This document shows, in pieces, positions 2,410 through 20,062 of a DNA stretch of 21,359 nucleotides. Position 1 is the first letter of the stretch. Every line of letters starts with the position of its first letter. The position numbers were made by a program, and so were the translations under genes. The DNA comes from an archaeon (GTDB taxonomy: Archaea > EX4484-52 > WAPT01): positions 1-21,359 of the forward strand of contig JAPDKB010000020.1 of the NCBI GenBank assembly GCA_029258795.1. The letters run 5' to 3'. The notes beneath the pieces were generated by a model that did not search any database, was not told where the DNA came from, and worked only from the letters and a program-made list of their open reading frames with translations.

Positions 2410-2670
2410 CACGAAAAATGATGTTCGCAATGCAATATTTTTTTCATCGATTTCTATGCTTTTCTTTAAGATAATTGTTTCAAACTTCAATTTTTCTTTT
2501 ATTTTTCTAAAACATTCAAAATTCTTTGATTTTGATTTTTGCAGTTTGTGAAACCACCATCATGCCATAGTTCAGCTTGATCTTGAATCATCCAAGATGT
2601 GAAAGTAACAACGAGAGGTGGATAAGCTTTCCATCATTCTCACGAAATTTTTAATGATATACTGCCTCAT
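2410..2670. other. Gene-free intergenic stretch
   Basis: AT-rich DNA between the divergent S-layer and first ATPase genes. I see no credible reading frame, RNA gene or long repeat here, only the TGAAAC-type half-sites noted for the S-layer promoter. Confidence 0.5.
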
Positions 2671-2712
2671 GGTACAAAATTATAAAAATACGTACTACAT
2701 ATAATACAAGTC
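2671..2712 (+). promoter_or_regulatory. Promoter of ATPase 1 with repeated TACAA motif
   Basis: A TATA element (ATTATAAAAAT, 2679-2689) lies about 29 bp before ATG 2713, as for a leaderless transcript, and there is no ribosome site. GTACAA at 2672-2677 and ATACAA at 2704-2709 flank it with starts 32 bp apart; the second copy abuts the start codon. Candidate operator. Confidence 0.5.
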
Positions 2713-4017
2713 ATGAGACGATATCTTATAGATAAAAAGGAAGATATAAAAGAATTGGAAGTAAAAGAAAGGGAGATTGGTTTCTTTGAAACACGATCTG
2801 TGGCTCAAACCATAATTGGGCCCAGAAGAGCTGGAAAGAGTTTCTCGCTCTTCTTTTGGATAAAGAAAAAAAAGCTAAGAGATGAGGATTATATCTTTGT
2901 GAACTTTGAAGATGATGAAATCAAAAACATGAAACGTGATGAAAAGGTTAGGTGTATTGAAGCACACCTTGAAATATACGGTAAGGAACCGAAATATCTG
3001 TTCTTTGACGAAATTCAGGAGCTTGAAAGATGGGAATCCTTTCTTTACAGTTTGGTGGAGAAAAGAAGATACGCTATTTTCGTAACGGGCTCAACCTCGA
3101 AAATCTCTAGCAAAGAAATAGCTTCAGAGCTTCGCGGTAGGTGTATAACAAAAGTTGTATTCCCTCTCAATTTTAGAGAATACATTAAAATAATGAGTGA
3201 GTATCACACCGCACCTCTTTCGAGTAGAAAGGAAAACATAATAAAACACAGACTTAAAACTTATCTGAACAGTAGTGGTTTTCCACAGATAGTGATAGAT
3301 GGTCTACCCCCAAAACTCTTCATTCGGGAGTATATTTCTACAGTCGTTTTTAGAGACCTTGTGGAGAAGTATCACATAGACAGCTTGTCAAATGCCCGTT
3401 ATTTTTTGGGTCGTGTTGTTGCAGCTTACGGAAATAGATTTTCAATTAACAAGGTTTATAATGAAATGAAGTCTTCAGGAATGAAGGTGGGTAAAGGTGT
3501 TCTCTACAATTATCTTGCTTATCTGGAGGATCTGTTGATAGCATTTTCATTAAGAAAATTCAGTTACTCAGAGAGAGAATCACAAGTATCCATCCCTAAG
3601 GTATTTCTGTGTGATCATGGGCTAGCCAATTACTTCATGACGACAAGATTTTCCGAAAATATTGGTAGGAATATGGAGAATGTGGTGTTCATCGAACTGA
3701 AGAAAGAATCATTCGAGAAAGATATTGAAATATTCTATTATCATGATCCGTTACAGCAGTACGAGGTTGATTTCGTTGTGAAGGAGGGAATGGAGGTGAA
3801 GCAGCTGATACAGGTCTGCTATGCTTCAAACTTTGATGAGGTGGAGCACAGGGAGCTCAGAGCATTGCTGAGAGCGAAGGATGTGCTGAACTGCAGGAAT
3901 TTGCTTGTCATAACATGGGATTATGAGGACACAAGAGAAATCAGGTGGTTTGGGAGAACTGGAAAAATAAGGTTTGTGCCTTTGTGGAAGTGGTTGCTCA
4001 ACCTCGCTAAAGCGTAA
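2713..4017 (+). CDS. AAA_14/DUF4143-type ATPase, paralog 1
   Basis: 434-residue P-loop ATPase of the predicted-ATPase family COG1373 (AAA_14 plus DUF4143). Walker A GPRRAGKS is at 36-43, Walker B YLFFDE at 95-100, a sensor-like TGSTS at 125-129 and an LRGR arginine-finger candidate at 140-143. The middle (about 230-285) looks like a winged helix. The C-terminus carries a PD-(D/E)XK-like core (E351, D353) followed by LIQV where an active nuclease would usually have an E-x-K. The last ~85 codons (from about 3753) are nearly identical in DNA to paralog 4, while the rest is far more diverged. Cellular function is unknown. The family is often guessed to be DNA-associated or part of conflict systems, which this sequence does not prove. 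Start at 2713 fits the leaderless promoter. Confidence 0.85.
   Translation: MRRYLIDKKEDIKELEVKEREIGFFETRSVAQTIIGPRRAGKSFSLFFWIKKKKLRDEDYIFVNFEDDEIKNMKRDEKVRCIEAHLEIYGKEPKYLFFDEIQELERWESFLYSLVEKRRYAIFVTGSTSKISSKEIASELRGRCITKVVFPLNFREYIKIMSEYHTAPLSSRKENIIKHRLKTYLNSSGFPQIVIDGLPPKLFIREYISTVVFRDLVEKYHIDSLSNARYFLGRVVAAYGNRFSINKVYNEMKSSGMKVGKGVLYNYLAYLEDLLIAFSLRKFSYSERESQVSIPKVFLCDHGLANYFMTTRFSENIGRNMENVVFIELKKESFEKDIEIFYYHDPLQQYEVDFVVKEGMEVKQLIQVCYASNFDEVEHRELRALLRAKDVLNCRNLLVITWDYEDTREIRWFGRTGKIRFVPLWKWLLNLAKA
3753..4001 (+). repeat. C-terminal module of ATPase 1, near-copy of 7863-8111
   Basis: By eye about 11 mismatches in 249 bp to the same part of ATPase 4, with an abrupt left border. It indicates recent gene conversion or recombination within the array. 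Confidence 0.8.
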
Positions 4018-4108
4018 TCCTCAGGGCGTCAGATTTTCAACAGCACTCCTAGGATCCTGTGCTTTCGCCATCCTCTAAAATTAGTGACTTATGGAAACGG
4101 TTATAAGA
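4018..4108. other. Spacer after ATPase 1, no gene
   Basis: No reading frame is seen. An AGCAC/GTGCT 5-bp inverted repeat encloses CCTAGG and AGGATCCT palindromes near 4043-4064. It might be a terminator or recombination scar, but support is weak. Confidence 0.25.
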
Positions 4109-4180
4109 TTGTACAAAATTAATTAAAATGAATCCCATTGGGATTAAATTTTATATATTTTTGAATCCCACTTATACCAT
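4109..4180 (+). promoter_or_regulatory. Promoter of ATPase 2 with GAATCCCA operator-like repeats
   Basis: A TATA element (TTTTATATATTTTT, 4149-4162) lies about 26 bp before ATG 4181, leaderless-type. GAATCCCA occurs at 4130-4137 and 4163-4170, 33 bp apart around the TATA box. The first copy is half of the dyad AATCCCA-T-TGGGATT (4131-4145). Further upstream, TTGTACAA (4109-4116) and the bases after it resemble the ATPase 1 promoter. Confidence 0.55.
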
Positions 4181-5434
4181 ATGCTCAGGGATTATCTAAT
4201 AGAAATAAAAAGGGACATCTCGGAGCTGAGAGTGTATCCCCGAGATATAGATGTAAATGTGAATTATCCTCTTGCAATAGTTGGTCCTAGAAGAGCCGGA
4301 AAAAGTTTTTTTCTGTTTCATCTTATAAAAACGCTAAACCTTAATGAAGAGGACTACCTGTACGTCAACTTCGAGGACTATGAAGTAAAGACGACAGACC
4401 CGTCCCAGCTGTTACCGACGCATTTTGAAATATACAGGCGAGAACCAAAATACCTTTTTTTGGACGAGGTTCAGAGCATAAAGAACTGGAGCCATTTTGT
4501 GTACTCTTTGGTGGAGCGAAAGAAATACAGAGTCATCCTGAGCGGTTCTTCATCAAAGCTTTTATCAAAAGAGGTGGCATCTTTCTTGAGGGGTAGATTC
4601 CTGTCAAAGCTCTTGCTTCCTCTCTCGTTCAGCGAGTTTCTGACGTTCAGGAACGTGATGCTGGATGAAATTCTGAGCAGGAAGGACATATCGATAGTAA
4701 GAGGTTACTTAATGGAGTACCTGAAAAACGGAGGATTTCCTGAAATAGTTCTCGGGATCATAAGAAAAAAAGACTTTGTGAGGCAGTATCTGGATGTGGT
4801 GCTTTATAGAGATTTTGTTGAGAGATTTAATATAGAAAATCCGGAGGCAGCCAAATTCATTCTTTATTCTCTGATCCAGTCGAACGCCTCGAAAATCTCA
4901 TCAAACAAAATCTATAATCAGCTCAGACAGATAACAAAAGTGAGCAACAAAACGGTGAGGAAATATCTGTCTCTCTTTCAGGACACTTTGGTGATATTTT
5001 TCACAAAGAAATTCCATTACTCTGCGAAAAAAACACATCTGTCGCAACCCAAAATTTATTTATGCGACCTCTCCCTAGAGCTTGAGGAAGATGGTACGGG
5101 AAGAAAGATGGAAAATGTGGTGTTCTTGAATTTAATAAGGAGGGATCAAGAACCGTTCTACTTTGAAACCCATGAAGGCTATGAAGTGGATTTTCTGATT
5201 AAAAACGGCTTCCGGATCAAACAACTTATCCAAGTGACTTATGCCAGTTCCTTTGACGAGATAGAGCACAGAGAAATAAGGGCGTTGCTGCATGCTTATG
5301 ATGTGCTGAAGGAACACAAACCGGAACTGCTTGTGATAACATGGGATTATGAGGACACAAGGGAGATCAGGTGGTTCGGAAAGAGCGGGAAAATAAGGTT
5401 TGTGCCTTTGTGGAAGTGGTTGTTGAAAATTTAA
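4181..5434 (+). CDS. AAA_14/DUF4143-type ATPase, paralog 2
   Basis: 417 residues, the shortest of the five. Walker A GPRRAGKS is at 35-42, Walker B YLFLDE at 91-96, SGSSS at 121-125 and LRGR at 136-139. A helix-turn-helix-like segment (around 230-275) precedes the C-terminal core with EVDFLIKNG and LIQVTYAS. The region between helix-turn-helix and nuclease core is shortened: the 'RFSE' loop found in paralogs 1, 3, 4 and 5 is missing. The C-terminal segment has the HAYDVLKEHKPE version shared with paralogs 3 and 5. Stop is 52 bp before paralog 3. The start is fixed by the TATA spacing and the lack of a ribosome site. Confidence 0.85.
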   Translation: MLRDYLIEIKRDISELRVYPRDIDVNVNYPLAIVGPRRAGKSFFLFHLIKTLNLNEEDYLYVNFEDYEVKTTDPSQLLPTHFEIYRREPKYLFLDEVQSIKNWSHFVYSLVERKKYRVILSGSSSKLLSKEVASFLRGRFLSKLLLPLSFSEFLTFRNVMLDEILSRKDISIVRGYLMEYLKNGGFPEIVLGIIRKKDFVRQYLDVVLYRDFVERFNIENPEAAKFILYSLIQSNASKISSNKIYNQLRQITKVSNKTVRKYLSLFQDTLVIFFTKKFHYSAKKTHLSQPKIYLCDLSLELEEDGTGRKMENVVFLNLIRRDQEPFYFETHEGYEVDFLIKNGFRIKQLIQVTYASSFDEIEHREIRALLHAYDVLKEHKPELLVITWDYEDTREIRWFGKSGKIRFVPLWKWLLKI

Positions 5435-5440
5435 TAATAA

Positions 5441-5486
5441 CCATAATACAAAAATTTATAAAAATTGTATACCCATTATACAAATC
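5441..5486 (+). promoter_or_regulatory. Promoter of ATPase 3 with three ATACAA half-sites
   Basis: A TATA element (AATTTATAAAAA, 5452-5463) lies about 29 bp before ATG 5487. ATACAA at 5446-5451 and TTGTAT at 5465-5470 form an inverted pair across it. A second direct ATACAA at 5478-5483 abuts the start with the same spacing (32 bp) and the same ATACAA-RTC-ATG junction as ATPase 1. Confidence 0.5.
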
Positions 5487-6779
5487 ATGGTATTCAACGA
5501 CAGCCTTGTTTTGGAGTTCTTTGAAAGTATGGAGCGGAGATTGAAAACAGAGGATATAATTGAGAGAGATCTAAAAACAAAACCCGTCCGTGATAAGGTT
5601 GTAGTGATAATCGGTCCGAGAAGAGCTGGGAAAACTTACTATTTATTCCACAAGAAAAGAGAGCATGGTGGCGTCTACATCGATTTTGAGGGCATAGAGT
5701 TCAGCAAACTTGAGGGTGAAGATGTGATCAAAATAGTGAAATTGTATGAAAATTACTACAGCAGGAAGGTCGATGTGATCTATTTGGATGAGGTACAGAG
5801 TTTAAAAAACTGGGAAAGAGTTGTGAGATCGCTTTTGAATCTCAATTACAAGGTGTACGTCACAGGATCATCCTCTAAGCTTTTGAGCAAGGAAATCGCT
5901 TCTCTTTTAAGGGGCAGATCTCTCTCCTACCTCCTCCTGCCGTTCTCATTCGAGGAATTTCTGAAGGTAAAGCAACTTACCAAAAAAGAAACGTATTCTA
6001 TTTCAGAGGTCACCCGCATAAAGAATTATTTGAGAGATTACCTCGATATTGGTGGTTTTCCCGAAGTGGTTCTTAAAGAGGAAAAAGAAAAAATTCTGAG
6101 GGAATACGTTGACTTGGCTTTTTTCAAGGATTTCGTCGAGAGACACGAAATAAAGAGCATGGAAGTGGCCAGAATAATCTTTGAATACATTTTGCAGAAC
6201 TTCTCAAAGGAAATATCAATAACAAAAATTCAGAACTTCATAGAAAAAACAATCGGAGTGAAAACAAAGACCACAATCTACGATTATCTAGAGAAACTGC
6301 AAGACACCATGTTTTTCTTTTTTGTAGAGAGATATGAACCCAGTGTTTACAAGAGAAAAAAGTATCCAAAAAAAGCATATCTATGTGATGTGGGCCTGAC
6401 GAAAATTTTCAGATTTTCTGAGGATTCTGGCAAAAAGATGGAGAACGTTGTATTTCTAGAGATTTTAAGAAAAACTAATGAGAAAGCAATGGAAATCTAT
6501 TATCTGAGGACACGTGAGGGTTATGAGGTTGATTTCTTAGTGAAAGATGGTGAGAGAGTCACACAGCTTATACAGGTCACGCGTGCATCAGCTTTCGATG
6601 AAATAAATCACAGAGAAATAAGGGCGTTGCTGCACGCTTATAATATCCTAAAAGAACACAAACCGGAGCTGCTTGTGATAACATGGGATTATGAGGACAC
6701 AAGGGAGATCAGGTGGTTCGGAAAAAGCGGAAAGATTAAATTCTTACCCCTCTGGAAGTGGTTGTTGGATATCAAATAA
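5487..6779 (+). CDS. AAA_14/DUF4143-type ATPase, paralog 3
   Basis: 430 residues. Walker A GPRRAGKT is at 43-50, Walker B VIYLDE at 97-102, TGSSS at 126-130 and LRGR at 141-144. A winged-helix-like region (about 240-290) precedes EVDFLVKDG and LIQVTRAS in the C-terminal core. In DNA the segment from about 6568 matches paralog 5 closely, then drifts to its own version in the last ~45 bp (KFLPLWKWLL rather than RFVPLWKWLL). The N-terminal IIERDLK is shared with paralog 4 and in looser form with paralog 5. It lies between two independent promoters, so it is probably monocistronic. Confidence 0.85.
   Translation: MVFNDSLVLEFFESMERRLKTEDIIERDLKTKPVRDKVVVIIGPRRAGKTYYLFHKKREHGGVYIDFEGIEFSKLEGEDVIKIVKLYENYYSRKVDVIYLDEVQSLKNWERVVRSLLNLNYKVYVTGSSSKLLSKEIASLLRGRSLSYLLLPFSFEEFLKVKQLTKKETYSISEVTRIKNYLRDYLDIGGFPEVVLKEEKEKILREYVDLAFFKDFVERHEIKSMEVARIIFEYILQNFSKEISITKIQNFIEKTIGVKTKTTIYDYLEKLQDTMFFFFVERYEPSVYKRKKYPKKAYLCDVGLTKIFRFSEDSGKKMENVVFLEILRKTNEKAMEIYYLRTREGYEVDFLVKDGERVTQLIQVTRASAFDEINHREIRALLHAYNILKEHKPELLVITWDYEDTREIRWFGKSGKIKFLPLWKWLLDIK
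6568..6675 (+). repeat. Module of ATPase 3 shared with ATPase 5
   Basis: About 100 bp encoding LIQVTRASAFDEINHREIRALLHAY and the following residues are nearly identical to 9244-9351 in ATPase 5. Part of it is also shared with ATPase 2 near 5267-5335. Confidence 0.7.
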
Positions 6780-6793
6780 TTGAAAACTTCCTC

Positions 6794-6837
6794 ATAATAA
6801 GGAAAAATTTTTAAAAAATTAGTTCTATAATAAGGAC
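6794..6837 (+). promoter_or_regulatory. Promoter of ATPase 4 with ATAATAAGGA direct repeats
   Basis: A 10-bp direct repeat ATAATAAGGA at 6794-6803 and 6827-6836, starts 33 bp apart, brackets the TATA-like AATTTTTAAAAAATT (6806-6820). The second copy ends 1 bp before ATG 6838, where it could also act as an operator over the start. Confidence 0.55.
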
Positions 6838-8127
6838 ATGCTTCGAAAAGATGTAGTGGATTTTCTAAAAGAGTACGAAGAATTCAGGCCAGAAATAATC
6901 GAGCGGGATTTAGAAATAACACCAAGCATCAAATTTATAACCTCGATAATCGGTCCGAGAAGGGCCGGGAAAACTTACTATCTTCTTCATCTTAGAGAAA
7001 AATTCAAAAAACCCCTGTATCTCAACTTTGAAGACACGAGACTAATGGACACAAAGGGAAAAGAGCTCAGAGAGATCATAAGAATATTCATGGAAATATA
7101 TGGTGCTTCTCCAGATGTGCTGCTTTTAGATGAGGTTCAAAATCTCCCTGAATGGGAAGGAGTGCTCAGAGAGCTTCACGACCTGAAGAAATATCCAATA
7201 GTAGTGACGGGCTCTTCATCCCGTCTTCTTGCAAGAGAGATAGCAACACAGCTGAGGGGGAGAACGCTAACGTACATTCTTTTACCTTTTTCCTTCACTG
7301 AATTTTGTAAAGCAAAGAAAATAATCGTTAATGACTTGCTCTCCAGAGATGAAGAAGCGAAATTTATTGCCCTTCTAAGAGAATATCTCCAATTCGGTGG
7401 GTTCCCGGATGTTGTTTTGAGCGAGGATAAACTGAAGATCTTAAAAGAATATTCAGATCTTATTCTGTTCCGGGATTTCATTGAAAGACACGAAATCAGA
7501 AATCTGAGCCTAGCAAGACATATATTTTCGTTCATCACGCAGAATTTTTCAAAGGAGATATCGGTAAACTCCCTATACAATCGCTTCCGTTCCAGCGGTC
7601 TGAGAGTTTCCAAGGACACCATCTACGAATATCTGGAAAAGCTTGAGGACACGCTTTTTGTTTTCTTCCTGCAGAAATATTCTCTGAAAGTGCACATGAG
7701 AGAATCATATCCAAAAAAAGTATATGTGTGCGACACGGGAATAACACGAGTTACGAGATTTAGCGAGGATTTGGGCAAGCTCATGGAAAATGCTGTTTTT
7801 CTGGAGCTCAGGAGGAGGGAGAACGCGAACCCGTTGCAGGAAATCTACTATTTCAAGGATGCACAGCAGTACGAGGTTGATTTCGTTGTGAAGGAGGGAA
7901 CGGAGGTGAAGCAGCTGATACAGGTTTGCTATGCTTCAAGCTTTGATGAGGTGGAGCACAGGGAGCTCAGAGCATTGCTGAGAGCGAAGGATGTGCTGAA
8001 CTGCAGGAATTTGATTGTGATAACATGGGACTATGAGGGCACAAGGGAGATCAGGTGGTTCGGGAGAACTGGAAAAATAAGGTTTGTGCCTTTGTGGAAG
8101 TGGTTGCTGAACATCAACTTTCCGTAA
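6838..8127 (+). CDS. AAA_14/DUF4143-type ATPase, paralog 4
   Basis: 429 residues. Walker A GPRRAGKT is at 39-46, Walker B VLLLDE at 94-99, TGSSS at 124-128 and LRGR at 139-142. A winged-helix-like segment (around 238-285) is followed by EVDFVVKEG and LIQVCYAS. From 7863 onward the DNA is about 95% identical to ATPase 1 (roughly 11 differences in 249 bp by eye). Just upstream the proteins differ widely, so the C-terminal module has been copied between them. The last third of the block carries synonymous variants of paralogs 2 and 3 instead. Function unknown as for the others. Confidence 0.85.
   Translation: MLRKDVVDFLKEYEEFRPEIIERDLEITPSIKFITSIIGPRRAGKTYYLLHLREKFKKPLYLNFEDTRLMDTKGKELREIIRIFMEIYGASPDVLLLDEVQNLPEWEGVLRELHDLKKYPIVVTGSSSRLLAREIATQLRGRTLTYILLPFSFTEFCKAKKIIVNDLLSRDEEAKFIALLREYLQFGGFPDVVLSEDKLKILKEYSDLILFRDFIERHEIRNLSLARHIFSFITQNFSKEISVNSLYNRFRSSGLRVSKDTIYEYLEKLEDTLFVFFLQKYSLKVHMRESYPKKVYVCDTGITRVTRFSEDLGKLMENAVFLELRRRENANPLQEIYYFKDAQQYEVDFVVKEGTEVKQLIQVCYASSFDEVEHRELRALLRAKDVLNCRNLIVITWDYEGTREIRWFGRTGKIRFVPLWKWLLNINFP
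7863..8111 (+). repeat. C-terminal module of ATPase 4, near-copy of 3753-4001
   Basis: Partner of the block in ATPase 1. Sequence to the left of 7863 diverges sharply, while the coding frame and end of the protein are kept. Confidence 0.8.
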
Positions 8128-8129
8128 TG

Positions 8130-8161
8130 AAATGCACAAAAATTTAAATTTTTGTGCATTT
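8130..8161. promoter_or_regulatory. Perfect 32-bp palindrome at ATPase 5 promoter
   Basis: Sixteen bases are exactly mirrored on the other strand, with TGCACAA/TTGTGCA arms around a central AATTTAAATT. The centre serves as a TATA element about 26 bp before ATG 8172. Such an element is likely an operator for a dimeric repressor. It also begins 3 bp after the stop of ATPase 4, so a transcribed hairpin or terminator is an alternative. Confidence 0.6.
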
Positions 8162-8171
8162 AATGTTGATC

Positions 8172-9455
8172 ATGTTGGAGATTCATGAAAGACTCCTTCG
8201 ACAGAAGAGAGAAGTTGAAAACATACTCGCTGAAAGGTTCGTAGAGAGGGATCTGCTCCGGAAAATGAAAAGATGGCTGAACTCAGATATTATAAAAATT
8301 GTGTCTGGAGTCAGACGCTCCGGAAAGTCGTTCCTTGCCATTCATTCTGTCAAGAACGTTCCTTTCGCATACGTGAACTTCGATGATGAGATGTTATGCG
8401 AAGCAAAGTTTGATGAGATTCTGAAACATCTCCGTGCAATTCACGGAGATTTCAAACTCTTGATTCTTGATGAAATTCAGAATGTGGATAGATGGGAACT
8501 TGTGGTAAACAGGTTGAAAAGGGAAGGGTACAACCTCGTGATCACAGGCTCAAACGCCAACCTGCTCAGTAAGGAACTCGCAACACACCTAACCGGCAGA
8601 TATGTTGAATTCACACTCTACCCCTTCAGCTTTCTGGAATACCTGAGAGCAAGGAACGTGAAACTGAATGTTGAGGTTGCCGAAGATGTGGGTGATCTTC
8701 TTCATCATCTGGAAGATTACATGAAGAGTGGCGGGTTCCCGGAAGTTGTAATTAAAAATTATGATCCACAGGAGTACCTGAACACCCTGCTGAAGGCGAT
8801 ACTGCTAAAAGATATTGTAAACAGATACAGACCAAAGTATCCATCGCATATTTCAAATTTAGCATATTACCTCCTCTCGAACATAAGTCACAGAGTATCG
8901 TTTTCCCGGCTCAAAAACATTCTTAATGTTGGAAGCGTCCACACAGTGGAGAAATACTGCAATTATCTACAGGAAGCTTTTATTTTCTTTTTCCTGAGAC
9001 CGTTCTCCTATAAAATAAGTGAACAATTAAAATCTCCCCGCAAAGTTTATTGTGTAGATACAGGATTTATTCGCTCCTCTGGTTTTCGCTTCTCTGAGAA
9101 TTTCGGAAAATTCATGGAAAACATAGTTTTTCTGGAACTTGTAAAAAAATTCAGATGCAACCTCGAGCTGTTTTATTATCATGACGTTGCTCGACAATAT
9201 GAAATTGATTTTCTCGTAAAGAGCGATCTGAGAGTTAGGCAGCTCATACAGGTCACGCGTGCATCAGCTTTCGATGAAATAAATCACAGAGAAATAAGAG
9301 CTTTGCTGCACGCTTATGATGTCCTAAAAGAACACAAGCCGGAGCTGCTTGTCATAACGTGGGACTATGAGGACACAAGAGAAATCAGGTGGTTTGGGAG
9401 GAGTGGGAAAATAAGGTTTGTGCCTTTGTGGAAGTGGTTGCTGGGGATCGGTTAG
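8172..9455 (+). CDS. AAA_14/DUF4143-type ATPase, paralog 5 (most diverged)
   Basis: 427 residues from ATG 8172. In-frame GTG 8154 and ATG 8163 are possible, but 8154 lies inside the promoter palindrome and 8172 fits the TATA spacing. Walker A is GVRRSGKS (46-53), not GPRRAGKS. Walker B LLILDE is at 96-101, TGSNAN at 125-130 and LTGR at 140-143, so it differs at several signature sites. The C-terminus has EIDFLVKSD and LIQVTRAS, with a tail nearly identical in DNA to paralog 3 and then to paralog 1. It ends 2 nt before the stop of the convergent tmcA. It may be an older branch whose tail was homogenised with the array. Confidence 0.83.
   Translation: MLEIHERLLRQKREVENILAERFVERDLLRKMKRWLNSDIIKIVSGVRRSGKSFLAIHSVKNVPFAYVNFDDEMLCEAKFDEILKHLRAIHGDFKLLILDEIQNVDRWELVVNRLKREGYNLVITGSNANLLSKELATHLTGRYVEFTLYPFSFLEYLRARNVKLNVEVAEDVGDLLHHLEDYMKSGGFPEVVIKNYDPQEYLNTLLKAILLKDIVNRYRPKYPSHISNLAYYLLSNISHRVSFSRLKNILNVGSVHTVEKYCNYLQEAFIFFFLRPFSYKISEQLKSPRKVYCVDTGFIRSSGFRFSENFGKFMENIVFLELVKKFRCNLELFYYHDVARQYEIDFLVKSDLRVRQLIQVTRASAFDEINHREIRALLHAYDVLKEHKPELLVITWDYEDTREIRWFGRSGKIRFVPLWKWLLGIG
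9244..9351 (+). repeat. Module of ATPase 5 shared with ATPase 3
   Basis: Counterpart of 6568-6675. ATPase 5 is otherwise the most diverged paralog, so the match points to local transfer between them. Confidence 0.7.
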
Positions 9456-12240: not shown

Positions 12241-14334
12241 TTACACTGTTACTGTTGAGATTATAGGACCAAATATTGCCATGATAAGCGCGTAAATTAG
12301 CAGATACATGGGCAGGCCCACCAGTAACAACTTCCATATTGTGTCGTGTTCATAAACCTTATCATCTCCTGCTTCTATCCTTGCTATGAACATGCCGGAA
12401 ATGATCAGCACTTCCACCACATAAATACCCACCACCAGCTGAAGAAGTTCTGAAGGTATTGCACCACCTCCGAGTCGGGGTAGGTTGCTTTCAGGCAGAC
12501 CTTCAACACCCCCGCCGATATCCAGCGTGCTCATCTGTTGCATTATCTTTTCCAGTATGTTGAGTATGAGTTTCGCTATACCCACAACCACTCCAGAAAT
12601 AACTGGCACGAGCACGTAGGCCTGGAATTTTAAGCTCGAAACCACGGTGGAAAGCAGATCCTCTATCTTCTCCTGAGTTGTGCGTATGTTGCGCAAATAC
12701 CTGCCTATTGTTAGCATGACTACAGCAGCTGACCTCGAGCCGTGCTGGATTGCGTCGGCTATAGCTTTCATTATGGCGGAAATCATGGCTGAAGGATAGT
12801 AGCGTAAAGCTCCGAACTGCTTGTTGAAGATAGCTTCCTTGAAGGTCATGTTGAGCTGTGTCATGTTCTTTATTATAATCCTTAGAAAATCCGCTATCTT
12901 CATTTCTTTGATGTCCTGCTCCGCTTTTACAAGCGCCGTCTCGACCGGCAGCTCATCCATCAGCCGGTTACCCAAGGCAAAAAGCACTTCCTCGTACTCC
13001 TTTTCCATCTCTATTATTTCCTGTCTCAATTTTCTCTTCTGAAAACAGCTGAGGTAAAAGTAGAGAGCTGCACTCATGCCAAGCAAAACAACAAAACCCA
13101 TACTGACAAGCATTGTATGGCTAATGCTCTCAACCTTGGTTGTAAAAAAGTTGGTTAAAATCATGATTTTGAGGAGAGGTGCAGAAAGAGTGAGGAAAAG
13201 TGCTGATGCTGGCAAAATGGCTGGAATGATGATGCGTTTACCTATAATATCTATCTTGAACTTTCCTGGAGGTATATAATCAGGATGCTTGCTTATCTCA
13301 ACGGTGGTGTGTGTTGGAGGTCTTTTCATAAATATCTGGTTTAGTAGTATGAACACGAATAGAGGTAAAACTACATCATAACCAACGAAGAGTGTCTTTC
13401 CTATATTTGGCCCGATCTCCTGCATGAACACACCCACGAGAGGGAAAACTATCATACCCATAACAGGCAATAGTATGCCCAAACCGTGCAACACCATGAC
13501 AGGTGTTTCCAGCTCCCTCACATACCTCTTCATCTGCTCATCCATTTCAAGGAGAACCAAATCGATTGCTTTGTTCAGCATCATGTCTTTTCTTTCTGGA
13601 GATGGTTCGAGCATGCTCTGCCTTATGAGGTGGATTGCCTCCACCAGCTCTTTATTGTAGCGCCTCCATACCTTCAAATAGTCAAGAAGAGCATCCTCAA
13701 CCGTTGTGAACTGTCCTATTTCAACTTTCCACAGAACTTCTTTTAAGTCCTGGGCAAGCTTCCCTTCCAGATTGGAGGCAGCAAATCTTACAGCTCCTTC
13801 AAAATTAGGGTTGGTCTTCATGTATACTATCATGTAAAGCACAGCCAGCAAAAGCTCCTTTCCAGTCCTTATCCTCATCCAAGCAGCTTTGTGGAGGGGA
13901 TAGTAAATGATGAGATAAGCTATGATAATGGGTACGAGTAAAAGTCCTATCTTTATGTAAGCTGAAATGGGGAAGTAAAAAGTGGGAATAAGGAATATGA
14001 GAGAAATTATTGCCATAAGTACGCCAGTGGATATGACTTCCGTGGGCTTGACTTTCAATCCTGCAAAATTTATTGCGGCTTCCAGTTCATTCATGAAATC
14101 ATCAGAAAACTTTATATTGAGGTTGGGTGCTGATTTACAAAGTTTTTCATAATAGGTTAGCATTTTCGCTTTCAGCTCTTCCTCTTTGAAAAGCTTGTAC
14201 TCTAGTGAGATCGCTTCCTCTCCTTCCTTTTTTTTCTCTTCAGGAACTATAATATTGTATCTTTTAACTATTTCCTTCATCAACCTCTCTTTTTCCATTT
14301 TTTCTTCCAGCTTTTCCTTTTCCTTGGATGCCAT
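12241..14334 (-). CDS. FlaJ/TadC-like integral membrane platform (T2SS F family)
   Basis: 697 residues from ATG 14334; GTG 14343 would add three. A charged N-terminal segment is followed by two membrane-helix clusters (about 105-155 and 275-345), a large cytoplasmic region, and a second half with helices near 370-440, 570-600 and the C-terminal 60 residues. This resembles two T2SSF units, as in archaellum FlaJ. Such proteins anchor the secretion ATPase in the cytoplasmic membrane and drive filament assembly. Its start lies 11 nt after the stop of the FlaI-like gene, and GTGAG ahead of the ATG can act as the ribosome site, so the two are translated from one message. At about 700 residues it is longer than typical FlaJ. 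Whether it serves an archaellum, pilus or other secretion device cannot be told. Confidence 0.88.
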   Translation of the reverse strand: MASKEKEKLEEKMEKERLMKEIVKRYNIIVPEEKKKEGEEAISLEYKLFKEEELKAKMLTYYEKLCKSAPNLNIKFSDDFMNELEAAINFAGLKVKPTEVISTGVLMAIISLIFLIPTFYFPISAYIKIGLLLVPIIIAYLIIYYPLHKAAWMRIRTGKELLLAVLYMIVYMKTNPNFEGAVRFAASNLEGKLAQDLKEVLWKVEIGQFTTVEDALLDYLKVWRRYNKELVEAIHLIRQSMLEPSPERKDMMLNKAIDLVLLEMDEQMKRYVRELETPVMVLHGLGILLPVMGMIVFPLVGVFMQEIGPNIGKTLFVGYDVVLPLFVFILLNQIFMKRPPTHTTVEISKHPDYIPPGKFKIDIIGKRIIIPAILPASALFLTLSAPLLKIMILTNFFTTKVESISHTMLVSMGFVVLLGMSAALYFYLSCFQKRKLRQEIIEMEKEYEEVLFALGNRLMDELPVETALVKAEQDIKEMKIADFLRIIIKNMTQLNMTFKEAIFNKQFGALRYYPSAMISAIMKAIADAIQHGSRSAAVVMLTIGRYLRNIRTTQEKIEDLLSTVVSSLKFQAYVLVPVISGVVVGIAKLILNILEKIMQQMSTLDIGGGVEGLPESNLPRLGGGAIPSELLQLVVGIYVVEVLIISGMFIARIEAGDDKVYEHDTIWKLLLVGLPMYLLIYALIMAIFGPIISTVTV

Positions 14335-14345
14335 CCCGCTCACTT

Positions 14346-16619
14346 TCAGAGTTTTTTAACCTCACTCCTCAACCAGCTCCTCCATAAGTTAAATGCTCGC
14401 TCATTATCGAGAGTCCCGTATTCTTCTATAACACGCTCGGAGATGATGTGGAAAGCCACATTGGCCCTCACGTAAAAATCAGCTTCCATAATCGCGAGGT
14501 TTCCTGTCTGTCTCGCCACATTGACCAGTTCCTCTTTCATTTTAGCTCTTATTTCTATGTTGTTCCATACCGCCTCCCAGTCATCGCGCCATTCCTTCAC
14601 ACGTTTGGCAATTTCGTTCAATATCAAGCTCTCTCCATTTAGCAGCGTTTCGGTTGGAACAAGTTCATCCTTTTTAGCATCATAAACCATGAGCGGAACG
14701 AAAGCCCCTTCCTTGACAGGATCCTCACTCCAGTCCTTCCTGACCTCTGTAATTTCCACCACTCTCCTGAAGGTGTGCAGACCATCGGCAGACCTCAATC
14801 TGTTCGCTATGACTATGATGTCCGTCGCCTTGAAGCTTGTGGGCGGCACTTCCAGATCGTTCACCACCCTATCAAACACACCGTAAGGAGAATCTCCGTG
14901 GATTGTGCCCGCCACAACGTTGGCTAAGGCGCCTATACGCATGGCTTCATAAAGAGCTCTTGCTTCCACACTCCTAACCTCTCCTAGAATCAAGCATGAA
15001 TCACCAAGCCTTAAGGAAACGCGCAGCGCTTCATCCGTCGGAAGCTCGCTCTCCACATGCGTGATTATGGAACGGGATTTTAAGCGGGCTATGTTGTAGC
15101 CCAGCCGCCTTAGATACTCCACCGGGAGCTCAAGCGTATCTTCCACAGTCACTATTCTGTAGCGCGGTAATATTTCGGTTAAGGTAGAACCAAGCAATGA
15201 TGTTTTACCAGCACTTCTAGTCCCCGCGTAAAGGATGGTGCGAGCTCCATCTATTATGAAAGAGATAAGTCCAGCAGCCAATGGGTTAAGCATCCTGTTA
15301 TGGATGAACAGTGGCATTGTCCACGGCTTATCTCTATGCCTTCTGAACGCAAAGGCATAGCCATCTGGGCTTAAGCTTCTGGTTATGGCTGCAACTCTGA
15401 CCCTTGCATAGGGGGTTATCATCTCCGTGTCAAGCACAGGATTTGATTCATCCAGAGGTCTTCCACTCTCTATTCTGAAGCGTGTGGCCCATGCTTCGGC
15501 ATCCTCCTGCGTTGGAATTATGTTGGTTATGCACTCCTCGTAATCAGAATGGAAGAGAAAGATAGGGGTTGTGCCGATGGGAGCGTTTATGTAGAGGTCC
15601 TGCACTTTTTCATCAGCCATCAGCACTTCAAGAATTCCATAGCCAGCAGTATACCTCGCCAAAATATTTGCCAGCTTGTTTATACTCTCTGTGCTGATTT
15701 CCAGCCTCATGTGTTCGGCAAGCTCGAGCAATAGATCCTTACCTATGTTAAAAAATATTTCTCTCGCTCTCTCCGGCTCAGCAAATTCTGCTCTTGTGGG
15801 CTTGTGCGCACCAAGGTACTGGCGTGCGGCATCAAGCAGAACGTATTCATCCTCGCTCAGCGCGAGTTCAGGAGGGATTATGTGATATTGATATTCTGGC
15901 CTTGTTGTGAGTTTGAATATCTGCACCTTTATGTCCTTACCCACAGTATAGCTGTCAATCTCCTTTCCATCAGATGGTGGGAGAAGCATGAAGCGTGTGA
16001 ACATGAAATTGGGCCTTATTATGGGGTGGAATATCTCGCGATAAATGCTTCTATCCCCCACCCTATACTCATCAAGTCGGGATTTCACAAGGTTTATGAG
16101 CTGCGTGTTTTCAAGCGCGGCTTTTAGGGGGAGAAGAGCATTTTGGAGGTAGTGGTTGATCGATTGCTGTGTTCTACCTCTGGCAACCTTTGCTCGGAGA
16201 GTTTCCTTCTTAATCTCTTTGAGGAGTGTTATATAAGCACCTATCGGGTCGCGCTTCATAATGTTAAGCAGGAGGTTCTGAATAAACGCTATTCTTGCTG
16301 GAGCCTCTGGATCGTTTGGGAATGGAGTTACCGCCCTTATAGATATGAGTTTGTTTTCGGTTGTGTAGTACTTTATGGTGGACGCTATCTCCTGAAGCAT
16401 CGAGGTCTGGGGGTAATCATATTCGAAATCCCTTGTTTGGGAGAGAACAACGCTTTGCACACCCTTTATCTGCATTAGCTTGTCTATGACTCTCGACATG
16501 CACTCCTCAAAATCCTCTATGCTCGCTCCGTACATGCAACCCAGACAGTTTATTTTGAGGCGGTGGAGCTTTCTGTCATATTCGTAGCTGCAGGGCTTTG
16601 GCATTTCCATCTGGGGCAT
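14346..16619 (-). CDS. FlaI/GspE-type secretion ATPase
   Basis: 757 residues, long for the family. The C-terminal RecA-like domain has Walker A GTRSAGKT (466-473), an Asp box VTVEDTLELPV (490-500), an atypical Walker B CLILGEVRS (542-550) and a His box GTIHGDSPYG (571-580). All are as expected for the hexameric ATPases that power archaella and type IV pili, though the P-loop reads TRSA instead of the common PTGS. The extra N-terminal part has Cys at 10, 25, 28 and 40 (C-x14-C-x2-C-x11-C), a possible metal site. It is the first gene of a two-gene unit with the FlaJ-like protein. ATG 16619 is preceded by GGTG and a TATA box in the divergent promoter. Confidence 0.92.
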   Translation of the reverse strand: MPQMEMPKPCSYEYDRKLHRLKINCLGCMYGASIEDFEECMSRVIDKLMQIKGVQSVVLSQTRDFEYDYPQTSMLQEIASTIKYYTTENKLISIRAVTPFPNDPEAPARIAFIQNLLLNIMKRDPIGAYITLLKEIKKETLRAKVARGRTQQSINHYLQNALLPLKAALENTQLINLVKSRLDEYRVGDRSIYREIFHPIIRPNFMFTRFMLLPPSDGKEIDSYTVGKDIKVQIFKLTTRPEYQYHIIPPELALSEDEYVLLDAARQYLGAHKPTRAEFAEPERAREIFFNIGKDLLLELAEHMRLEISTESINKLANILARYTAGYGILEVLMADEKVQDLYINAPIGTTPIFLFHSDYEECITNIIPTQEDAEAWATRFRIESGRPLDESNPVLDTEMITPYARVRVAAITRSLSPDGYAFAFRRHRDKPWTMPLFIHNRMLNPLAAGLISFIIDGARTILYAGTRSAGKTSLLGSTLTEILPRYRIVTVEDTLELPVEYLRRLGYNIARLKSRSIITHVESELPTDEALRVSLRLGDSCLILGEVRSVEARALYEAMRIGALANVVAGTIHGDSPYGVFDRVVNDLEVPPTSFKATDIIVIANRLRSADGLHTFRRVVEITEVRKDWSEDPVKEGAFVPLMVYDAKKDELVPTETLLNGESLILNEIAKRVKEWRDDWEAVWNNIEIRAKMKEELVNVARQTGNLAIMEADFYVRANVAFHIISERVIEEYGTLDNERAFNLWRSWLRSEVKKL

Positions 16620-16658
16620 AAAGTGACACCTTTTGGTTGTGGTGGTGTGGCTAACTTA

Positions 16659-16691
16659 TATATTAATGTTTGGTCACCACATATTAATATA
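16659..16691. promoter_or_regulatory. Dyad-symmetric bidirectional promoter
   Basis: TATATTAAT (16659-16667) and ATTAATATA (16683-16691) are exact mirror images around base 16675, which is also the centre of the 9-bp near-palindrome TGGTCACCA (16671-16679). Each arm is a TATA box for one direction: leftward for the FlaI/FlaJ pair (leader about 17 nt) and rightward for the coiled-coil genes (about 10 nt). A regulator on the central dyad would act on both operons. Confidence 0.6.
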
Positions 16692-16723
16692 GTTGCATAA
16701 AATGCGAGCTTAAAGGTGTGGAG

Positions 16724-17137
16724 ATGAGAGGTTCTGATATCAACACGATGGTCAACGAACTGTTGAGAAGAGTAAACGATAATATGAGAAGGATAAGGTT
16801 GATTGAGGAGCGCTTGAGAAATGTAGAGGTGAGGTTGAACGCTTTCGAGCGGGATTTGATCTCTTTTGAGAAGGAGATGAACAAAAAGAGTGGGGATATT
16901 GATCATGCAATAAAGCTGATTGAGGACAAAATGATAAATATAGAGACTGACATAATAGAGTTGAGGAAGGAAATAAAGAAGCTCGCGAAAGTTAGCGATA
17001 TTGAGGAGATGAAGCGTTACATAGAGTTGATATCTCCCGTCACAACCAGATATGTGACAAAAAAGGAAGTGGAGGAGATGATAAAAGAAAAGATTGAGGA
17101 ATTGCTGGAGGAGGAGCAAGGTGGGCTTGTTAGATAA
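16724..17137 (+). CDS. Coiled-coil protein, possible FlaC/FlaD-like accessory factor
   Basis: 137 residues, almost entirely charged alpha-helix with heptad-like spacing (about 10-100) and no membrane segment. A short RYVTKKEVEEMIKEKIEELL segment forms a C-terminal helix. It resembles the cytoplasmic coiled-coil factors that accompany FlaI/FlaJ in archaeal motility and pilus loci, but I see no diagnostic FlaC/E domain. ATG 16724 is chosen over GTG 16718 because GGTG at 16715-16718 is a good ribosome site for it. It overlaps the next gene by 17 bp, so the two are translationally coupled. Confidence 0.75.
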   Translation: MRGSDINTMVNELLRRVNDNMRRIRLIEERLRNVEVRLNAFERDLISFEKEMNKKSGDIDHAIKLIEDKMINIETDIIELRKEIKKLAKVSDIEEMKRYIELISPVTTRYVTKKEVEEMIKEKIEELLEEEQGGLVR

Positions 17138-17951
17138 TCTCTTTGGGAAGAAGGGTAAGAGCAGTGCATCAAAAGCTGGTAGTATTACTCCTTCCCCCTC
17201 TCCACAAAAATTACCACCCATGCAACCTGCTCCTCCAATCCCTTCTCCAATATCTGCTGCTCCCCAACCATCTTATGGGCTCGCTGATGAAACCAGATGG
17301 GTTAATTATGCCATGTCTCTCTTCTCGCAGGGGTATGGTGAAGCTGAGGTCAGGTCTGCTTTGTTATCCAACGGACTGGATGCTAATGAAATAGACAGAA
17401 TAATGACCAAAGTTATGAGGCAGGTTGTCACTTCCAGAGATAGCTATTCTCCTGCAGAATACTCAGCACCGCAGCCATTTTCGGGAGAAGACGAGGGTGT
17501 GTTTGATCTAACCCCGATGAGAAGCGGGAATGAAGAAAATGTGAGTGGTGGAAGTGAGTATTATGAGGATTATGATGAGGATTTGAGTTTCATGGAAGAA
17601 GTTTCCTCGTTAATAGAAAGCACCATAAATGAGAAGTTGGAAGTTGTGAATGACAGAATGGAAGAGATTATGAGCAGGCTTGAAAATTTAGAGAGGAATT
17701 TGAACGCGCTTTCATCAAAGTTTGAGGAGACGGTAAAAACGCTGGAAGAAAAGGACAGGGAAATTGAAAATGAGTTGAATGATCTCAAGGACAAGCTGGC
17801 AAAGTTTGACCCCAGAGTGAAAAGCTTGGAAGACGCGTTTAAAGACATAGTGCCCAACTTGGTTGATAACGTCAGAGAGGTTAGAGAGCTTGTCATGGAA
17901 ATTAAGCACAAAGAAGAAGTTAAAAAGCACAGGAAATTAAGAGAAATCTAA
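17121..17951 (+). CDS. Coiled-coil protein with Pro-rich linker
   Basis: 276 residues from GTG 17121, with a GGAGGAGG ribosome site just ahead (17108-17115) inside the previous gene. An earlier in-frame TTG (17094) is less likely. Order: a basic amphipathic tip GLLDNLFGKK (2-11); a Pro/Ser-rich linker (about 15-50); a small helical domain (58-98) with W-x6-LF-x-QG and E-V-R-x2-L-x3-GL repeats, like a short tri-helical binding module; an acidic stretch (about 125-155); and a long coiled coil (160-270). There is no signal or membrane segment. Convergent with the next gene, 3 nt between stops. Likely a cytoplasmic partner of the FlaI/FlaJ-like machine, by promoter sharing only. Confidence 0.75.
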   Translation: MGLLDNLFGKKGKSSASKAGSITPSPSPQKLPPMQPAPPIPSPISAAPQPSYGLADETRWVNYAMSLFSQGYGEAEVRSALLSNGLDANEIDRIMTKVMRQVVTSRDSYSPAEYSAPQPFSGEDEGVFDLTPMRSGNEENVSGGSEYYEDYDEDLSFMEEVSSLIESTINEKLEVVNDRMEEIMSRLENLERNLNALSSKFEETVKTLEEKDREIENELNDLKDKLAKFDPRVKSLEDAFKDIVPNLVDNVREVRELVMEIKHKEEVKKHRKLREI

Positions 17952-17954
17952 AGG

Positions 17955-18416
17955 TTATTTCTTAGCTATCAAATACACAGCCCCAAAAGTCACTAAAAGA
18001 ACTATGATCGTCATGACTGTTTCTGAACTGATTGAAGCTGTGGTGCCACTTGCAAGCATGTATGCAATGGCAACTATTATTACTGCGCCTATTCCGGCTA
18101 TGTATTTGGTATCGCCTCCAAAAACCTCTTCCGGCTTGACGCCGAAAAGAGCCAAGAAAATTATCAGAATTACTATAGCGGCTATTATCGTTCCCGCTAT
18201 CCCGAAAATCTGGGTGAAGAAAACACCCCTCAATGTGTACGTTGCCAGGAAAGCTATGGCTATTGCTATTGCACCATTCACCGAAACTTCCTCACTTATC
18301 GTTTTTTTGTTCTGAAGGATTCCAAAGACCACTGCAAGGATAAGAACGAATGGCATGAAAAAGTCGTAAAATCCGAGCTGTGCCAGGTTATCAAGCACAC
18401 TCTGAATCAAAGACAT
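17955..18416 (-). CDS. Small multi-helix membrane protein A
   Basis: 153 residues. About five hydrophobic segments (near 19-38, 46-64, 69-92, 104-122, 130-151) with few charges between. The start QSVLDNLAQLGFYDFFMPFVLILAVVFG matches the N-termini of the two following proteins, so all three are paralogs. ATG 18416 has an AGGTGAG ribosome site. It lies 28 nt downstream of protein B, in the same unit. No known family is recognised. Function unknown; the location suggests a membrane component next to the secretion-type genes. Confidence 0.8.
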   Translation of the reverse strand: MSLIQSVLDNLAQLGFYDFFMPFVLILAVVFGILQNKKTISEEVSVNGAIAIAIAFLATYTLRGVFFTQIFGIAGTIIAAIVILIIFLALFGVKPEEVFGGDTKYIAGIGAVIIVAIAYMLASGTTASISSETVMTIIVLLVTFGAVYLIAKK

Positions 18417-18444
18417 TCGCGCTCACCTATAGGATGATTCACTT

Positions 18445-18936
18445 TCATCCTCTCATCGCTATCCAGATGACCAGCAGGATGAATCCAAATACGAACAGCA
18501 CGGTCATAGTTTCCTGCGAGATACCAGCTGAAAGTCCTCCGCCGTAAGCGTTATTGTAAACTATCCATGCAAGAATGACCAAAGCTGCAACCACAATGTA
18601 TTTTATTTTGTCTTCTTGGAATATTCCGCCTTTCCCACCTCCAATCTCGAAGCCCATTATCGCAACAAAAAGCACCAAAACTAAAAGCGCTGACAGTATC
18701 ATGGACATGCCGCCGAAGAGTCTGGAGTAATAAGCGGCTATACCTCCAACAGGAGTGTAGTTCACAACAAAGAATGCTATGGCTGCTGAGATTATTGCGA
18801 TTATACCTCTATCCTCTCCAAAAATTCCAGTCCTCTGGAGCAATCCAAAAACTATGCCGAAGAAGAGGAGCCAGGGTAAAACAAAATCATAAAAGCCGAC
18901 CTGATTCAAAATGCCTATGACATCAAGGAAGTTCAT
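18445..18936 (-). CDS. Small multi-helix membrane protein B
   Basis: 163 residues, with the same five-segment pattern as protein C and the N-terminus MNFLDVIGILNQVGFYDF. The start is ATG 18936: it matches the paralog's start and has an AGGTGAG ribosome site about 6 nt upstream. An upstream ATG at 18957 would overlap the stop of protein C. The last helix (LLVIWIAM) is identical to that of protein C, with 33 identical bases in DNA (18452-18484 versus 18997-19029). Function unknown. Confidence 0.8.
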   Translation of the reverse strand: MNFLDVIGILNQVGFYDFVLPWLLFFGIVFGLLQRTGIFGEDRGIIAIISAAIAFFVVNYTPVGGIAAYYSRLFGGMSMILSALLVLVLFVAIMGFEIGGGKGGIFQEDKIKYIVVAALVILAWIVYNNAYGGGLSAGISQETMTVLFVFGFILLVIWIAMRG

Positions 18937-18956
18937 TTGACTCACCTTTTCAACCA

Positions 18957-19481
18957 TTATTTTTCTTGTTGATTTCCTCCACCGCCTTTCCCACCGCTCA
19001 TCGCTATCCAGATGACCAGCAGGATGAATGCAAGTGTGAGTATCACCACAAGCGTGTCGTTTGAAAGCCCTGCCCTTCCGTATCCACCAAGAGCGTTGGT
19101 GTATGCTAGATAAGCAAAGATGACAAGCATTATCACGACAGCGTATTTTATCGGAGGTTGTTTATCTCCACCCTCCTTGAACACATTCTCCACACCCATG
19201 ATAGCTGCGAACAGCATTAACACGAGTAAAGCTCCTATAATCATTCCAGCCCCTCCAAACAGTGTGGAGAAAAACTGAGCAAGAGTTGTGCCAGCGGGAG
19301 TGAAAGCAACTATGAAAAACGCTATGGCTGCTGATATTATTGCGTTTATGCCTCGCTCTTCAGTTATTATTTTCTTGTTTTGTAACAATCCAAAAATTAT
19401 GCCGAAAAACAGAAGCCACGGTACGACCACATCATAAAAGCCAACCTGATTGAGCACGTTCAGCACGTCAAGGAAGTTCAT
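18957..19481 (-). CDS. Small multi-helix membrane protein C
   Basis: 174 residues with about five membrane segments and a short Gly/Lys-rich tail (GGKGGGGNQQEK). It is a close paralog of protein B: FLDVLNVLNQVGFYDVVVPW in place of FLDVIGILNQVGFYDFVLPW. The leader has GGTGAT a few bases before ATG 19481, and a TATA box (19534-19546) lies upstream. It is the first gene of the C-B-A unit. Product not recognised. Confidence 0.8.
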   Translation of the reverse strand: MNFLDVLNVLNQVGFYDVVVPWLLFFGIIFGLLQNKKIITEERGINAIISAAIAFFIVAFTPAGTTLAQFFSTLFGGAGMIIGALLVLMLFAAIMGVENVFKEGGDKQPPIKYAVVIMLVIFAYLAYTNALGGYGRAGLSNDTLVVILTLAFILLVIWIAMSGGKGGGGNQQEK

Positions 19482-19533
19482 ACTGGCATCACCACCATTT
19501 CATGGTTCTTAGTTTGATTAAGGTATTGAAGGC

Positions 19534-19546
19534 ATATATAAATTTT
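19534..19546 (-). promoter_or_regulatory. TATA box for membrane protein C-B-A unit
   Basis: ATTTATATATG on the minus strand, overlapping the stop codon of the upstream gene, places a start near 19512 and a leader of about 30 nt. Confidence 0.5.
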
Positions 19547-20030
19547 ATCCATTCTCAGTTCCCGAATGTTTAGTTCCGAGCAGCAGGATCATTACCACTA
19601 TGAAAATACCAATACCCCACACCACATTTTCTTCCATGCTCGGACTTATGAATGACAGCATTCCTCCTTGGTAAAAGATGTAGAGCAGCAAGAGAAGGAA
19701 AAAAAGAACTATCACACTTATCATTGTGTCCCTAGAAGGGGATTGAGAATCTTTATCCTTACCAATTCCCAGATTGTTCTTGATCAGAATGAAAAGGAAC
19801 AGAAAAACTAGAATTACGGCGGCGTAAGGCATTATCTGCCAGATGAACATAACGACGCTCTGGTTGAGAGAGGCAAAAAGCGCTATAGCCACGGAAACGA
19901 GAGTGGCAGCTGACTTGTCTTTACCAAGGTTTGTGAGCTTGACCGTGCCAAAAACTATTGCAAAAATTAGCAAGAATGCTCCTGCAAACTGAATCAATGG
20001 GTCATTTGCCATGAAGTATGGGGAGAGCAT
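19545..20030 (-). CDS. Small multi-helix membrane protein D
   Basis: 161 residues with four to five hydrophobic segments (about 13-28, 40-60, 65-85, 100-122, 132-152). It shares the overall size and pattern of proteins A-C, including the first-helix 'IFAIVFG' theme, but has diverged and carries a charged loop with many Lys/Asp at about 83-97. ATG 20030 is preferred, with GTGA 5 nt upstream; GTG 20039 and ATG 20012 are alternatives. It lies 32 nt after the larger membrane gene. Function unknown. Confidence 0.7.
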   Translation of the reverse strand: MLSPYFMANDPLIQFAGAFLLIFAIVFGTVKLTNLGKDKSAATLVSVAIALFASLNQSVVMFIWQIMPYAAVILVFLFLFILIKNNLGIGKDKDSQSPSRDTMISVIVLFFLLLLLYIFYQGGMLSFISPSMEENVVWGIGIFIVVMILLLGTKHSGTENG

Positions 20031-20062
20031 GGGGGTCACTCGCTTTAGTTTTTCAGGAACTT

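Follow-up and report, generated by a model that had tools for sequence, protein, structure and literature searches.

Background

MalT and the mycobacterial IniR are STAND transcription factors, in which an AAA+/STAND ATPase controls transcription. IniR is a STAND-like ATPase whose target is another operon and which has a separate DNA-binding domain at its C-terminus (PMC5760070). Control of a protein's own promoter has been described for the AbiEi and Rv2827c antitoxins, which repress it via two sets of inverted repeats (PMC7319586). On the structural side, SSO1545 (2fna) and PABY2304 (2qen) of the PF01637 family combine an AAA+ module with a winged helix, and McrC, Can2 and Hjc are PD-(D/E)XK nucleases. 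For the AAA_14-DUF4143 ATPase family, our literature search found no paper on function or promoters, and self-operators are not described there.

We analyzed a stretch of 21,359 nucleotides from an archaeal contig, which we refer to in its entirety as the window. It carries five tandem AAA_14-DUF4143 ATPase genes (2713-9455), together with BRE/TATA promoters, a tmcA gene and an S-layer-like gene. The likeness to MalT and IniR lies in an AAA+/STAND ATPase with a predicted role in transcription; unlike in IniR, the likely reader of DNA is a winged helix (wHTH) inside the ATPase, and the predicted target is its own gene. With AbiEi and Rv2827c the array shares a putative DNA-binding protein with an operator in its own promoter. 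However, specificity appears to differ in every copy, and there is no toxin-like partner in the array, the interval between the S-layer-like gene and tmcA holding the five ATPase genes only. The PF01637 proteins are alike in their AAA+ module and winged helix, whereas the PF01637 genes of relatives lack the promoter repeats described below, and the C-terminal domain shares the fold of the PD-(D/E)XK nucleases without their (D/E)xK signature. The parts are therefore of known kinds: a STAND-like ATPase, a winged helix and an operator in the gene's own promoter. What is new, as far as our literature search shows, is that about half of the family's genes have a private operator of fixed geometry that covaries with the recognition helix.

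Results

Promoter repeats in the array

All five ATPases match Pfam PF13173 (AAA_14) and PF13635 (DUF4143) well above the curated/gathering cut-offs (Table 1). A first-pass annotation of this DNA had listed four of them but had missed ATPase 5. It had also described a repeat around the TATA box of ATPases 1 to 4, and all eight repeat coordinates are correct: TACAA at 2673/2705 (ATPase 1), (T)GAATCCCA at 4130/4163, 9 bp with the T (ATPase 2), ATACAA(A) at 5446/5478 (ATPase 3) and ATAATAAGGA at 6794/6827 (ATPase 4).

We asked how often dinucleotide shuffles of each 63-bp promoter give a repeat at 32-33 bp that is at least as long. The repeats of ATPases 2 and 4 are significant on their own (P = 0.0018 and 0.00025), that of ATPase 3 is borderline (P = 0.049), and the exact 5-bp repeat of ATPase 1 is by itself at chance level (P = 0.13). 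On exact matches alone, the repeats of ATPases 1 and 3 would not convince. When mismatches are allowed, the arms of both look better (Table 1), with 13 of 15 positions identical in ATPase 3. The ATPase 5 promoter contains a perfect 32-bp palindrome, AAATGCACAAAAATTTAAATTTTTGTGCATTT.

Table 1. Positions in the window of the ATPase genes and of the elements in their promoters
Feature	Position	Strand	Sequence	Remark
ATPase 1 operator, upstream copy	2660..2677	+	TACTGCCTCATGGTACAA	
ATPase 1 TATA box	2680..2688	+		centre ~29 bp before ATG
ATPase 1 operator, downstream copy	2693..2709	+	TACTACATATAATACAA	
ATPase 1 (AAA_14 + wHTH + DUF4143)	2713..4017	+		
ATPase 2 operator, upstream copy	4129..4145	+	TGAATCCCATTGGGATT	palindromic
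ATPase 2 operator, downstream copy	4162..4170	+	TGAATCCCA	33 bp from first
ATPase 2 (AAA_14 + wHTH + DUF4143)	4181..5434	+		
ATPase 3 operator, upstream copy	5438..5452	+	TAACCATAATACAAA	
ATPase 3 operator, downstream copy	5470..5484	+	TACCCATTATACAAA	32 bp from first
ATPase 3 (AAA_14 + wHTH + DUF4143)	5487..6779	+		
ATPase 4 operator, upstream copy	6788..6804	+	TTCCTCATAATAAGGAA	
ATPase 4 operator, downstream copy	6821..6836	+	AGTTCTATAATAAGGA	33 bp from first
ATPase 4 (AAA_14 + wHTH + DUF4143)	6838..8127	+		
ATPase 5 operator, 32-bp palindrome	8130..8161	+		centred on TATA box
ATPase 5 (AAA_14 + wHTH + DUF4143)	8172..9455	+		family's TATA-to-ATG distance used for start

Three operators were searched against the genome. 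That of ATPase 5 is unique, that of ATPase 4 has one other site, with 2 mismatches, and that of ATPase 2 has no other match within 2 mismatches, barring the same site on the opposite strand. Since none of the three has an equal elsewhere in the genome, they do not appear to define a regulon. The suggestion of a motif common to ATPases 1 and 3 was not supported: TACAA is all they have in common, and their operators are less similar (5.8) than the family background (6.23). Cross-regulation between the two is likewise unsupported, their wHTH regions being 27% identical.

The spacing recurs in homologues

Homologues were gathered from public genomes in a first set of 121, a non-redundant set of 216 and a separate set of 108; their start codons were assigned mechanically, and some must be incorrect. 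As controls, we used 424 neighboring genes at the homologue loci and 23 genes of the sister family PF01637 from relatives. Exact direct repeats of at least 8 bp occur 27 times at 33 bp, 10 times at 34 bp and 6 times at 32 bp among the 216 homologues, versus at most 3 at any other spacing. The independent set of 108 genes replicates the peak at 33-34 bp (12 at 33 bp and 9 at 34 bp). In the 121-gene set, 17 repeats of at least 8 bp were seen at 33 bp against about 0.25 in shuffles; with the threshold at 7 bp, the count is 22 of 121, against a shuffle mean of 0.8 and a maximum of 4 in 100. Of the 424 neighboring genes, one reaches the 7-bp threshold at 33 bp and none the 8-bp threshold at 32-34 bp, and promoter repeats at 32-34 bp are absent from all 23 PF01637 genes. 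Shuffled sequence thus does not give such pairs as often, and the constant geometry with a changing motif, first proposed from four promoters, is borne out by the 33-bp peak in the 216 and 108 homologues.

Many genes were poorly described by a strict dyad model with four half-sites, and we used TATA-anchored tests for direct and inverted forms instead. The direct-repeat signal falls in columns -22..-15 and +11..+18 relative to the TATA box (z = 12.4). When each gene's own upstream arm is compared with its own downstream arm in a swap test, the match has z = 18.1 for the direct and 16.0 for the inverted form, and it is destroyed when upstream arms are paired with the downstream arms of other genes. 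By these tests, 48% of homologues are in the top 5% for the direct or inverted form, where about 10% would be expected, and about half have no clear repeat. The TATA box is centred mostly 24-30 bp before the start codon in the 216 genes, the distance expected of leaderless genes, so that the messages are probably leaderless. Where present, the repeated site overlaps the gene's own promoter elements, as a self-operator would.

The winged-helix region best predicts the motif

If the ATPase itself binds these sites through its winged helix, motif similarity should follow the wHTH. We therefore identified the nearest neighbor of each protein by 30-residue segment and compared the operators of the two, capping identity at 0.6, 0.5 or 0.45. 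Segment 241-270 ranks first at caps 0.5 and 0.45 and second at 0.6 (0.787 versus 0.807 for the overlapping segment 231-260). Against permuted operators it reaches z = 10.0, 7.3 and 6.3 at caps 0.6, 0.5 and 0.45, where nominal P values overstate the significance since the sequences are related, which identity caps and representative sets remedy only partly. It also exceeds the mean of the segments outside the region in all 5000 bootstraps. Segments 231-260 and 201-230 are nearly as predictive at cap 0.6, and the C-terminal region is the worst predictor. The winged-helix region (~231-270) best predicts the motif even for proteins less than 45% identical; when segment identity is simply correlated with operator similarity pair by pair, only weak peaks appear. 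That the motif follows the wHTH region among homologues favors the first-pass proposal that each ATPase has its own specificity through its winged helix.

At the level of residues, Y263, K259 and D260 are among the top positions in mean coupling. Among representatives below 45% identity, the strongest association with CC in both arms is that of K259 (853 tests), and K260 is associated with CC at P = 0.03 on one representative set. With relatedness removed, residue-level coupling is weak (region test P = 0.03-0.04). Mutual information per residue, which supports the region weakly at this level, gave spurious peaks at invariant residues when restricted to columns where both arms agree, and was kept as a pointer only.

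Homologues with similar wHTH regions carry similar motifs, in keeping with the conservation in related promoters that the earlier proposal predicts. The wHTH-nearest homologues of ATPase 1 carry its motif TATGTACT, one of them (L139) having TATGTACTGC...AATACAA in the same place. ATPase 2 combines K260 with the motif ATCCC, as do the homologues nearest to it in the wHTH; the corresponding homologues of ATPase 5 have ATGCA in common, and several of those of ATPase 4 have the related TTGTCC...AAGGA.

Protein structure and the C-terminal domain

The AlphaFold model of ATPase 4 (mean pLDDT 95) has wHTH helices at 223-235, 243-252 and 259-271 and a strand (wing) at 275-278. The model puts the recognition helix at 259-271 (ATPase 4 numbering), where the coupled residues lie. 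Its best structural matches are SSO1545 and PABY2304 (Z = 14.7 over 262-266 residues); the AAA+ core followed by the winged helix aligns over residues 15-308 with an rmsd of 4.5, a match of fold only. G39, G44 and K45 are invariant.

The C-terminal domain has the PD-(D/E)XK fold (McrC, E = 4e-5, TM 0.52; Z up to 9.2) and retains E317 and D348 (ATPase 4 numbering). The (D/E)xK catalytic signature is missing: the second acid is Q362 in 192/216 members, and the lysine position (residue 364) is T, C or S in 192/216. This domain is probably a pseudo-nuclease conserved for another reason. The TBP inhibitor Tk-TIP26 (2czr) is one of the weaker matches to its fold (Z = 7.1), at a level that many nucleases share, and by analogy the pseudo-nuclease may act on the promoter machinery itself.

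Evolution and distribution of the array

In two sister species (L258 and L260), the tmcA and S-layer genes are neighbors, with about 320 bp and no ATPases between them; the ATPase block was therefore either gained here or lost in the sister species. We saw no target-site duplication at the block. The five-gene segment absent from both sister species corresponds to 2570-9455 of the window.

The C-terminal tails of tandem copies are much more alike than expected (excess identity 0.26 ± 0.03); in winged helix and operator, tandem copies resemble one another no more than unrelated genes do. In a stretch of about 80 codons, ATPases 1 and 4 have 94-97% DNA identity; across most of the remaining sequence, the figure is 38-52%. 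The homogenized tails lie at 3750-4014, at 7850-8124 and at the 3' ends of the other ATPase genes; ATPases 2, 3 and 5 share another tail version, and tail homogenization is seen in other tandem arrays too. There is no sign beyond chance that tandem copies avoid one another's motif.

The family is present in many archaeal genomes, with at least 16 matches in one genome among the matches listed, and one relative was found in viral contigs. We examined plasmid relatives in six records (five bacterial and one archaeal), some of which have repeats, too few for inference. The Calditerrivibrio relative has an inverted repeat, GGATAAAA, the Moraxella relative has TTATTTTCCA 40 bp apart, and the Methanomethylovorans relative has repeats 32 bp apart but further upstream. 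The bacterial plasmid relatives in Sulfuricurvum and Sulfurimonas (L262 and L265) adjoin integrase genes.

Discussion

Comparison of these sequences makes it probable that each ATPase binds a private two-site operator over the BRE/TATA region and its own leaderless gene start, and so represses itself. The operator would consist of two gene-specific, roughly palindromic copies at a distance of about three helical turns (33 bp). The first covers the BRE and the sequence immediately before it, and the second falls in the interval that separates the TATA box from the start codon. The winged helix of the ATPase encoded by that gene, an AAA+/STAND-like protein whose PD-(D/E)XK domain is degenerate, would bind these copies and keep TBP/TFB and RNA polymerase off. 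The ATPases very probably bind their own genes and most likely switch them off; since the sites take in the BRE/TATA region along with the predicted leaderless start, repression by exclusion is probably the sign of control. Dimers may occupy the palindromes, and the state of the ATPase might make binding looser or tighter. With a different specificity in each copy, tandem paralogues would be insulated from each other. More speculatively, the arrays could be banks of mutually insulated self-regulators, in which DNA-binding heads and operators diverge freely while gene conversion keeps the tail common, each copy being a separately controlled reader that feeds one shared output; we regard this extension as possible, though doubtful.

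STAND regulators such as MalT are activators, and activator sites usually lie upstream of the BRE. The ATPases might bind their own promoters to activate them, or to switch between activation and repression, and the STAND-like IniR is indeed needed to induce its target operon (PMC5760070). We consider this unlikely for genes whose sites lie over the BRE/TATA and start region, where a bound protein is expected to block TFB and polymerase. Given that we infer the binding of ATPase to operator, the sites could also belong to transcription factors that are unrelated to the ATPases and encoded elsewhere, each ATPase gene having its own. Such a scheme would need as many dedicated regulators as there are ATPase genes, and it strikes us as improbable when the motif varies most closely with the winged helix of the ATPase itself and the three operators searched give no regulon.

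The repeats might instead be substrates by which the ATPase genes recombine or move, serving as ends, targets or repair sites, a reading that would fit the absence of the array between the same two neighbors in two sister species, the nuclease fold of the C-terminal domain and the integrase genes beside some plasmid relatives. It is nevertheless very improbable, as the sites flank each gene's TATA box and not the array ends, their position is fixed relative to promoter elements, and nearly all members have lost the (D/E)xK lysine. Chance, in promoters this rich in A and T, would be a sufficient account of the repeat of ATPase 1 alone and come close for that of ATPase 3 (P = 0.05), but for the family the 33-bp peak in two gene sets, the swap test (z = 18) and the control genes (0/424 neighbors, 0/23 sister-family genes) refute it, and we give it almost no weight.

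Private operators at many of its genes provide a first testable biochemical activity for this ATPase family, and a way to read the DNA specificity of each ATPase from sequence alone. The homologues offer many naturally occurring pairs of winged helix and site as material for learning a recognition code, and they might supply thermophilic archaea with regulators that are insulated from one another.

Other features of the window

Positions 12241-20039 contain two large minus-strand genes, encoding a 757-aa protein that resembles a secretion-type ATPase and a 700-aa membrane protein with no Pfam match, along with a series of small proteins with transmembrane stretches; these may encode an archaeal pilus or a secretion apparatus. 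The region at 2299-2570, which lies upstream of the gene for the S-layer-like protein, has GTTTCA/TGAAAC elements (AACTTGAAACNGTTTCA, TTGTTTCAAAC and GTGAAAC), which are also kept in the two sister species and are possible regulatory sites.
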